Below, piece after piece: positions 10,076 through 29,469 of a DNA stretch of 64,000 nucleotides. The stretch is from contig JAAYCM010000025.1 of the NCBI GenBank assembly GCA_012729765.1, positions 62,001-126,000 on the forward strand, read 5' to 3'. The notes beneath the pieces were generated by a model. It was not told the DNA's origin, did no database searches, and saw only the letters and a program-made list of their open reading frames with translations. Numbering within the stretch: the stretch's first letter is position 1; each line of letters starts with the position of its first letter. A program made the translations under genes and the position numbers. The stretch comes from Chloroflexota bacterium. Lineage in GTDB: Bacteria; Chloroflexota; Anaerolineae; Aggregatilineales; Aggregatilineaceae.

Positions 10076-10151
10076 TGGTGACCCTGAGAGGACTCGAACC
10101 TCTAACCAATTGATTAAGAGTCAACTGCTCTGCCAATTGAGCTACAGGGCC
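10076..10151 (-). tRNA. tRNA-Lys (anticodon CTT)
   Basis: Complete 76-nt cloverleaf on the minus strand with encoded CCA. The acceptor GGCCCTG pairs with CAGGGTC (one G-U), the D arm carries AGCTCAATTGGCAGAGC, the anticodon loop is CTCTTAA with anticodon CTT, and the T arm contains GGTTCGAGTCC. It decodes AAG. Confidence 0.96.
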
Positions 10152-25318: not shown

Positions 25319-26851
25319 CTACTTGGCGTAGTCTACCGCGCGAGTTTCGCGGATAATCGTCACCTTGATCTGGCCGGGATACTGCATCGTTTCTTCGATA
25401 CGCTTGGAGATATCGCGTGCCAGCCGCATCGCGGCCAGGTCGTCGATCTCTTCCGGCTTGACCATGATCCGCACTTCGCGCCCGGCCTGGAGCGCGTAAC
25501 TCTGCTCCACACCCTCGAACTCGCGCGCCAGGTCTTCGAGCGCCTTGACGCGCCGGATGTAGGTGTCCAGGCTTTCGCGCCGGGCGCCCGGTCGCGCGCC
25601 GGAGATCGCGTCGGCGGCTTCGATGATCATCGCCTCGACCGACTCCTGCTCGACCTCGTGGTGATGGCTGGCGATGGCGTTGACCACCTTCGGTGGCAGC
25701 CCATAGCGGCGCGCAAAGTCCGCCCCGATGGAGGCGTGCGTGCCTTCGATCTCGTGATCGACCGCCTTGCCGATGTCGTGCAGCAGCCCGCCGGCCTTGG
25801 CAATCGCCACGTCGGCCCCCAGCTCCGCCGCGATCATCCCGGCGATGTGTGCCGTCTCGATCGCGTGCGCGTGCTGGTTCTGGCCGTAGCTGGTGCGGAA
25901 CTTGAGCCGCCCCAGCAGTTTGAGGATTTCATTGTTCAGGCCGGGCACGCCTGCCTCATAGGCGGCGCGCTCGCCCTCTTCACGGATCACGCGCTCGACT
26001 TCCTTGCGCGAGTCGCTGACCAGCTTCTCGATCCGCGCCGGGTGGATGCGGCCATCCAGCACCAACTTGGACATGGCGCGCTTGGCGACCTCGCGCCGGA
26101 CCGGGTCGAAGCTCGAAATCGTGATGGCTTCGGGCGTGTCATCCACCACCACATCGACGCCCGTCGCCTGCTCGAAGGCGCGGATATTACGCCCGTTGCG
26201 GCCAATCACGCGGCCCTTCATCTCGTCCGACGGCAGGTTGACCACGCTCACCGCGATCTCGTTGATGTGGTCGGATGCGATGCGCTGGATCGCCAGGGCG
26301 ATGATGTCACGCGCGCGGTTTTCCGCCTCGACCTTGGCCTCTTCTTCCACTTCGCGGATGCGGCGGGCCATGTCTTGACGGGTCTCGGTTTCCACCATCG
26401 TCAGCAGCTCTTCGCGGGCCTGGTCGCGGGTCATCTCGGCCACACTCTCCAGCACCGCGCGCTGCTCCTCATACATGATCTGGATATCATTCTGCCGCTT
26501 GTCGAGCTTGCTCTGGCGCTTGTTGAGGTTCTGCTCGCGCAGTTCCAGGCGCTCGTAGCGGGTATCAAGGTCTTCGCGGCGCTTTTGCAAGCGGTCGCTT
26601 TCACGGTCTATCTCAATGCGTCGCTTCTTGGCGTTTTCTTCGGCATCTTGCTGGATACGCAGCGCGGCGTCTTTGGCCTCGACTTCGATCTGCCGGGCCT
26701 TGTTTTGCGCTTCGTTCACGACGCGCGCAGCTTCTTCCTCTGCCTGGCGCTGCCGGTTGGTGCCCTTCATGTTCTGATAGGCATACAGCACGGCTGCACC
26801 CAACCCAACGCCAATCGCGAGCCCTCCTATCAGGGCTAGCACGATTTCCAT
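25319..26851 (-). CDS. rny: Ribonuclease Y
   Basis: Membrane-anchored endoribonuclease that initiates mRNA decay. The 510-aa protein has the full architecture: an N-terminal transmembrane helix (about 3-22), a long Lys/Glu/Gln-rich coiled coil (about 25-195), a KH RNA-binding domain with [17 protein letters not shown] near 217, and an HD hydrolase domain with [10 protein letters not shown] near 333, [12 protein letters not shown] near 355 and ASHHHEVE near 393. Length is typical (about 510-520). It starts 6 bp after the recX stop, so recX and rny form one transcript. Confidence 0.96.
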
Positions 26852-26857
26852 GGGGCC

Positions 26858-27535
26858 TTACTCCTCATCGGTATTGGTTGTCGTATCATCGGTTGCAAAA
26901 TACTCAGGGTCTTCATCTTCCAGTTCACGGATCGTTTGTTCAATGACTTCGCGCGCCAGGCTGTAGTCAAAGCCGCGCCGCGTCAGGAACGCGCCCAACT
27001 TCTGGTAGAAGTCAGCGCGACTCAGTCCGCGCCAGCGGCGCGCCTTTTCCTGGGCTGCCCGGTAGGCCGAGTCGTGACTATCGACCTCGGCCAGCACCTC
27101 ATCGATCAGGCCCGACGGAATGCCCTTCTGGCGCAGCTCGTAGGCCAGGGCGCGCGGCCCGCGTGGGTTGAAGCGCTCACGGTTCTCGACCCAGTATTCG
27201 ACGAACGCCCGGTCATCGACATAACCGAGATGTTCCAACCGGGCGAGTGCCTCGTCCACGACGGGCGGAGCAATCGCTTTTGATTCCAGGTGACGGCGGA
27301 TCTCCGTCGTGCTGTAGGGGCGGCGGGCCAGCAGCCGGACCGCGCGATCGAACGCCCGCGCGATTTCATCGATCGCACGCAGGGCTGCGATCTCCTCGTC
27401 GGAGAGCACCTGCCCTTTGTGCAGCCGCGCCGCCTCGTCCAGCGGCAGCCCGAACGCGTACTCGCCGTCCAGATAGATGCTGGCGCGGTCGGCGTTGCGC
27501 TGCTGCACTTCGATCGCGGTAATCGTCCCACCCAC
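26858..27535 (-). CDS. recX: RecX family regulator of RecA
   Basis: A 225-aa protein of the RecX family, which binds RecA filaments and modulates recombinase activity. The tandem three-helix repeats show in LLARRPYSTTEIRRHLESK near 68, LEHLGYVDDRAFVEYWVENR near 98 and RGPRALAYELRQKGI near 124, then FYQKLGAFLTRRGFDYSLAREVIE near 180. An acidic tail ends the protein. Starts at GTG. Family assignment is supported by recA lying upstream on the same strand. Separated from recA by a roughly 600-bp structured interval ending in a terminator 23 bp before its start. Confidence 0.9.
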   Translation of the reverse strand: MGGTITAIEVQQRNADRASIYLDGEYAFGLPLDEAARLHKGQVLSDEEIAALRAIDEIARAFDRAVRLLARRPYSTTEIRRHLESKAIAPPVVDEALARLEHLGYVDDRAFVEYWVENRERFNPRGPRALAYELRQKGIPSGLIDEVLAEVDSHDSAYRAAQEKARRWRGLSRADFYQKLGAFLTRRGFDYSLAREVIEQTIRELEDEDPEYFATDDTTTNTDEE

Positions 27536-27551
27536 GCGTGATGGCCCTCAT

Positions 27552-28055
27552 AAACAAGACAGCCGTCGACCAACATGGCCACGGCTGTCCGTAGATGCTT
27601 GACTGGAACTCGCAGGAAGTGTCCTGCTGAACTAACGTGAAGGCGCGTGATCTCGCCTGAACAAACGTCACGCCTCAAGCGCGCGTGACTGCCCTAAGCC
27701 TCTGAATCACTTCATGATGCCCAGCAACAGGTCAGCACAACGCGTCCCTTCGTTCATCATCTTCAGCTTACACCTGCCTACCTTGACCGATCGAACATAC
27801 AAAACCTGGCAAGCTGCCCAGGGGTACATCACTCAATCGGTCGGCGGCCTGGGAGGGCTTCGCCGGCACACCGGTTACGCTTTTTGCGGCTGAAACTTCC
27901 TGCCGCGCTCCTCCCCCCAGCCTTTCAGGTTAGCCCACACAGTGTGTGAGGATACTAACTCACAACTAACACCCGCCAGATTAACGGATGGACATCAGGT
28001 AAGCCCTGGTCGAGTTCCACAATGACAGTCGTGGCACGTTTCTTAAGCGTACTCC
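27552..28055 (-). ncRNA. Candidate structured non-coding RNA between recA and recX
   Basis: No ORF, but a dense set of complementary pairs on the minus strand. In transcript order: a domain closed by GTTAG/CTAAC (27970-27929) containing a TTGTGAG hairpin; a domain closed by GGCTGGG/CCCAGGCC (27922-27846) with two inner hairpins, one capped by a TGTG loop; a domain closed by GACCGAT/ATCGGTC (27842-27785) with an inner CCTGG/CCAGG stem; hairpins GTCACGC/GCGTGAC (27689-27667) and GCAGGA/TCCTGC (27627-27612); then an intrinsic terminator. A promoter at 28062-28090 would start it near 28055. It shows no RNase P, tmRNA, SRP or 6S signature. A long recA 3' UTR is the alternative. Confidence 0.55.
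27558..27589 (-). terminator. Intrinsic terminator before recX
   Basis: GACAGCCGT/ACGGCTGTC (9 bp) extended by GGCC/GGTC, followed on the minus strand by TTGTTTAT. It ends the candidate RNA 23 bp before the recX GTG. Confidence 0.7.
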
Positions 28056-28061
28056 ATTCCT

Positions 28062-28090
28062 ATTATGCCTGTTCCCATCCGATAACACAA
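28062..28090 (-). promoter_or_regulatory. Promoter downstream of recA, candidate RNA promoter
   Basis: Minus strand TTGTGT, 17-bp spacer, CATAAT, 66 bp past the recA stop. It points into the structured interval and, with read-through, recX. Confidence 0.45.
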
Positions 28091-29395: not shown

Positions 29396-29469
29396 TGGGG
29401 AGTCGCCAAGTGGCCTAAGGCAGCGGCCTTTGGAGCCGCCACACGCAGGTTCGAATCCTGCCTCCCCAG
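29396..29469 (+). tRNA. tRNA-Gln (anticodon TTG)
   Basis: A 74-nt cloverleaf. The acceptor TGGGGAG/CTCCCCA has the U1-A72 pair characteristic of bacterial tRNA-Gln and discriminator G73. The anticodon stem GCGGC/GCCGC carries loop CTTTGGA (anticodon TTG), and the T arm contains GGTTCGAATCC. CCA is not encoded, unlike in tRNA-Lys, so a CCA-adding enzyme is needed. Confidence 0.95.

Follow-up and report, generated by a model that had tools for sequence, protein, structure and literature searches.

A conserved structured RNA, probably a leader, upstream of recX-rny (RNase Y) with features of a transcription attenuator in a Chloroflexota bacterium and its relatives

Introduction

In many bacteria, bulk mRNA decay begins with RNase Y, and to our knowledge little is known about how its amount is set outside Bacillus subtilis. 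In B. subtilis, RNase Y limits its own synthesis by cutting its 164-nt rny leader and the early ORF; control there works through cleavage and decay of the mRNA in its 5' UTR and early ORF, and the words "terminator" and "attenuation" are absent from the wording of the paper (PMC10303841). The locus described here is alike in having a leader before rny, and the autoregulation in B. subtilis supports feedback here. It differs in that its leader is longer, precedes recX-rny rather than rny alone, and carries a predicted terminator/antiterminator switch. In E. coli, RNase E exerts feedback through the rne 5' UTR (PMC10989929; cited in PMC10303841). That system shares with the present locus a structured leader of the gene for a decay-initiating endonuclease, whereas it is described as acting in cis via stem-loops of the 5' UTR, and both its sequence and its phylum are unrelated. 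As far as we know, no attenuator forms part of the description of the rne 5' UTR.

Three further groups of systems invite comparison. In T-box, riboswitch and protein-controlled attenuators, two exclusive folds decide on termination before the first gene, as is proposed here; in contrast to these, the present leader has no Rfam match and its antiterminator strand lies far 5', about 200-550 nt away. Large RNAs such as OLE, GOLLD and ROOL are likewise structured RNAs of several hundred nucleotides with closed ends, but the present leader is linked to rny, matches no Rfam family and has a terminator as part of its closing helix. Finally, in the recA-recX co-transcription of E. coli and mycobacteria, recX lies next to recA and is regulated relative to it; in E. 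coli, recX is reportedly transcribed together with recA (Pages 2003, cited in PMC2605550). The leader described here differs in having its own promoter and in persisting without recA.

Results

The window is a stretch of 64,000 nucleotides from a Chloroflexota bacterium, in which recX (26858-27535, minus strand, with ortholog matches) is followed by rny, the gene for RNase Y (25319-26851, minus strand, found by tblastn). Two tRNA genes were also present in the window, one at 29396-29469, which lies upstream of recA and on the other strand, and one at 10079-10151. Between the recX start (27535) and the recA end (28156) is a gap of 620 bp, for which the original prediction had proposed a large RNA without an ORF, either a stand-alone novel ncRNA or a 3'-UTR/leader controlling recX by termination. 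No credible ORF was found in the gap, and it appears from the comparison below that the gap encodes a real and conserved structured RNA of about 500 nt on the minus strand, from about 28055 to 27550.

The promoter TTGTGT-17-CATAAT of the original prediction was confirmed at its site, with the -35 element at 28085-28090 and the -10 element, of the extended type, at 28062-28067 on the minus strand, separated by a 17-nt spacer; transcription would start at about 28055. An extended -10 (TG-N-GCATAATA) together with a TTGT -35 was found in 18/18 genomes of the family and is widespread in the order, the -10 element reading GCATAATA or GGATAATA in all 18 and in most of the order. A generic sigma-70 scan did not call this leader promoter. 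The 5' ends of the family leaders share a pattern of GCTTGT..TGTGCATAATATA followed by CCACGGTTG, GGAACTCG and a CCATC/GATGG hairpin, and their far ends have CGAGTTCC (in most) and then ACAGCCGTGG..ACGGCTGTTTTT.

The strong intrinsic terminator proposed just before recX also held up. This putative attenuator (27550-27589, minus strand) consists of the arms GACAGCCGT (27589-27581) and ACGGCTGTC (27566-27558) followed by a T-rich tract, and ends about 21 nt short of the recX start. In 17/18 family genomes the terminator ends 15-26 nt 5' of recX, the exception (L028) being a locus where the scan chose another hairpin as the terminator. Because of this short distance, there is little space for a separate recX promoter. 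Judged by sequence, the terminator thus immediately precedes the first gene without a separate promoter between the two, as in an attenuator.

The gene recX was found in all 18 family genomes, which represent 12 genera. A covariance model of the leader's 5' part, built from the family (R1), found the leader once per genome in 18/18, always before recX, and gave a weak match in one more genome of the order, again immediately 5' of recX. Over 396 genomes of the class, R1 gave nothing convincing beyond the family members, which is not evidence of absence because the leader sequence diverges. Direct DNA searches in relatives returned only fragments, and recX synteny was used instead, for which the 1 kb before recX was taken from another 60 order genomes. 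Many of these share the promoter type and have, just before recX, a terminator whose arm sequence is the same. With up to 2 differences allowed, a terminator with a 5' arm like CAGCCGTGG occurred in 18/18 genomes of the family and 42/60 of the others in the order, compared with 1/60 in a control stretch and a mean of 0.4 in shuffles. The automatic search for leaders missed some of those of family f2. Diverged versions of the leader lie before recX-rny across most of the order. In the class outside the order, a terminator bearing GCYGTGGC (up to 2 differences) was found before recX-rny in 28/38 members, compared with 3.9 in shuffles (maximum 8) and a single one in a control stretch.

At 21 loci from other classes of the phylum there was no such leader; these classes have either a recA-recX gap that is short or an rny gene but no recX. 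Three loci from another class (L247-L249, in genomes of 1.4-1.5 Mb) carry a terminator GGCTGAGGC..GTCTCGGCTTT with a similar arm between recA and recX, but the gap is short and leaves no space for a large leader. A pattern search on viral contigs gave a single match, inside a gene, which we judged to be due to chance.

Since recA is the next gene upstream in the window, the element could be the 3' UTR or terminator of recA, where partial read-through out of recA would set how much recX is made relative to recA; recX is, after all, reported to be co-transcribed with recA in E. coli. The gene recA is upstream in 6/18 family genomes (the window and 5 others). In 11/18, however, recA was not found in the preceding 1.4 kb while the leader and its promoter are retained (in the remaining 1/18 the contig ends too soon). 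The leader is therefore not tied to recA, and we consider the recA 3'-UTR reading very improbable. Of the two readings in the original prediction, the second, a 3'-UTR/leader controlling recX by termination, was close. As for recA itself, the genome of the window has a second RecA-like gene (G000:C71:35906-36916) that is 72% identical to the RecA of the window, and family genomes typically have two RecA matches.

The gene that accompanies the leader most constantly is rny. It follows recX at every family locus, and recX and rny were adjacent in 40/40 genomes tested from the order. In two genomes of family f7 (G056 and G152), recX is located elsewhere with neither rny nor the leader beside it, and the leader lies directly before rny; in eight more f7 genomes no recX was found, and the leader again lies directly before rny. 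Because in f7 the leader stays before rny where recX is gone or separated, it tracks rny rather than recA or recX, which is what would be expected across genomes of an autoregulatory RNase Y leader. At two f45 loci (L227 and L228, in G221 and G190) no recX was found and rny follows recA directly; a simple hairpin lies between the two genes, and there is no leader of the recX-rny kind.

The leader has a long-range helix, P1, in which a 5' strand CCACGACTG (28026-28034, minus strand; family consensus CCACGGTTG) pairs with CAGCCGTGG (27579-27587, minus strand), a stretch that is nearly invariant in 18/18 family genomes and overlaps the 5' arm of the terminator. The 5' strand (CCACGG-), a candidate antiterminator strand, is thus complementary to the terminator 5' arm (-CCGUGG) across about 450 nt. 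Since the 3' strand of P1 is the terminator's own 5' arm, P1 and the terminator exclude each other by sequence.

As a test for selection on P1, the terminator arm of each genome was paired with its own 5' zone and with the zones of other genomes. Across 66 genomes, pairing within the own genome gave -19.9 kcal/mol compared with -17.1 kcal/mol for permuted pairs (z -8.6, 0/20000 permutations). The result was also obtained outside the family (z -7.6) and in f2 alone (z -5.3), while within the family the test was weak (z -2.2, 320/20000) because P1 barely varies there. Four control pairings of neighbouring stretches gave z values from +0.4 to -2.5, and outside the order a test of the same type gave z -3.9 (control -1.0). 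The P1 5' strand was taken as the best match in its zone, which biases pair counts towards pairing; the permutation test applies the same choice to the own and the permuted sides. Compensatory variants of P1 include UCAUGGUUGUUCAUUGC/GCAAUGAACAACCGUGG (17 bp) in L117, AUCACGG/CCGUGAU in L084, CUACGG/CCGUAG in L091 and CAACGGUUG/CAGCCGUUG in L223 of f7. The P1 arms of f7 were set by hand, and P1 was not seen in two f7 leaders, L218 and L220. P1 is thus a covarying helix that excludes the terminator, as an attenuator would require, and covariation, a check suggested by the original prediction, was found for P3 and P4 as well (see below).

Folding predictions suggest an order of events along the transcript. 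Early in transcription, the CCACG of the 5' strand is predicted to be paired locally (0.97 in the leader of the window; median 0.80 of 40 leaders). In the window, its partner is GTGG (P0; 28017-28020, minus strand), which pairs with CCAC and is a candidate anti-antiterminator. In most of the family this local partner follows the 5' strand (CCACGG..CUGUGG); in f2 it precedes the strand (GUGGU..ACCAC), and a local partner recurs in other families. Among 40 leaders with a clear 5' strand, P1 is predicted to form before the terminator 3' arm is made with a median probability of 0.89, and in the full-length transcript the terminator is predicted to dominate (median 0.94). The window's own leader follows the same folding order with a weaker P1 (0.67, one mismatch). 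Because the terminator wins at equilibrium in most full transcripts, antitermination would have to be kinetic or aided.

Other helices are conserved within the leader. P2 joins GGAACTCG (28011-28018, minus strand) with CGAGTTCC (27605-27612, minus strand), the latter being kept before the terminator in most family genomes; 90.8% of its cells are paired in 15 family leaders, and f2 uses GAACG/CGTTC instead. Two hairpins, P3 (CATCCG..CGGGTG, 27970-27990, minus strand) and P4 (CCTCACAC..GTGTGGGC, 27933-27951, minus strand), show covariation. Pairs of P3 changed on both sides number 4 in family f1 and 3 in f2, and 4/6 pairs of P4 changed on both sides in the family; P3 and P4 together have 8 such pairs in the family compared with 2.4 in shuffles. 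The middle domain (27613-27932, minus strand) contains further predicted hairpins. It is present in all family members and poorly alignable, being variable in length and sequence and very variable between genera, with no consensus structure.

Folding of the single sequence was modest relative to shuffles (z -2.25 for the leader strand) and proves little, since the opposite strand was as extreme (z -2.98); it is the comparative evidence that bears the claim. These modest scores, alike on both strands, would suit a spacer in which the terminator is an ordinary one and the hairpins arose by chance. We find such a spacer hardly credible, because the promoter, the ends and the terminator are conserved in sequence in 12 genera, P1, P3 and P4 covary, and the motif-bearing terminator occurs in the order far above its frequency in shuffles.

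The switch could also have another input, namely a small molecule or an ion recognised by the middle domain, which would make the leader an orphan riboswitch that RNase Y does not operate. Consistent with this, the leader has an aptamer-like domain closed by a terminator-exclusive helix, as in many riboswitches, and P3 and P4 are conserved. Aptamer cores of riboswitches are strongly conserved, whereas here conservation is seen only in P3, P4 and their neighbours and the middle domain varies widely between genera. Control of an RNase gene, moreover, suggests feedback. We regard a riboswitch as unlikely, though the strongest of the competing readings.

A search of Rfam 15, also suggested by the original prediction, found no family at or above the gathering threshold over the leader stretch, with scores at chance level for E values up to 10. 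The leader is likewise not taken for a T-box riboswitch, as there is no Rfam match and the downstream genes are unrelated to aminoacylation. RNase P RNA and tmRNA were rejected as identities of the leader since both genes were found elsewhere in the same genome, in line with the lack of their hallmarks noted earlier. The tmRNA model also scores above its cut-off at another, shorter stretch of the genome (G000:C8:49247-49372; 126 nt compared with 385 nt for the main match), which may be a tRNA or a fragment. Among the 104 candidate RNAs of PMC2864571, there is no mention of recX, recA or RNase Y, the separate list of 224 candidates being outside this comparison.

The first reading of the original prediction, a novel stand-alone ncRNA, would hold that the RNA acts in trans, like OLE or 6S RNA, is merely located before recX-rny, and has P1 as the helix that closes the mature RNA. 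Such an RNA would account for the strong promoter and terminator of its own, for the closed 5' and 3' ends, the large size and the several helices, and for a full transcript that is predicted to be mostly in the terminator state. Against it, the leader is almost always 5' of recX-rny or rny, with a single copy in each family genome, and remains with rny after recX is lost or moved. Control in cis also fits the position of the terminator, right next to the recX ribosome site, and the fact that P1 is built with the terminator arm rather than with a stem of its own. A trans-acting RNA is therefore improbable, more so than a riboswitch.

Discussion

We propose that the recX-rny mRNA begins with this element as its 5' leader and that the leader acts as a transcription attenuator, a reading to which we assign a probability of about 0.72. 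The comparison between genomes shows conservation of the promoter, P1, P2, P3, P4 and the terminator, covariation of P1, mutual exclusion of P1 and the terminator by sequence, and linkage to rny and not to recA. Beyond the original prediction, it indicates that the element is not a feature of recA, that its constant partner is rny, that it has two exclusive states, and that it occurs across the order, with a related terminator across much of the class.

In the proposed mechanism, RNA polymerase would initiate near 28055, and the local hairpin P0 would first hold the 5' strand (CCACG..). About 450 nt later, P2 (GGAACUCG/CGAGUUCC) would join the ends, and the 5' strand would then pair with CAGCCGUGG to form P1. 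With P1 formed, transcription would read through into recX-rny; with P1 lost or undone, it would terminate 21 nt 5' of recX. We infer the existence of these transcripts, antitermination by P1 in cells and the direction of control.

Our leading, still tentative proposal for the input of the switch is feedback by RNase Y. If RNase Y cut the leader between its 5' strand and P2, the antiterminator would be gone and the terminator would win. That the nuclease ends transcription by cutting its own leader at this place is somewhat more doubtful than feedback as such. It is more speculative again, and on balance unlikely, that RNase Y gauges its own free level by cutting the nascent leader, as a nuclease-operated attenuator kept across much of the class. 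We know of no other system in which an RNase exerts feedback through nuclease-operated transcription attenuation.

Regardless of its input, the leader would add an RNA family that Rfam lacks, and a single mRNA would join a modulator of RecA (RecX) with the main decay nuclease (RNase Y). As an order-wide leader with a two-state switch that appears legible from sequence, it may offer a direct target for the study of RNase Y control.
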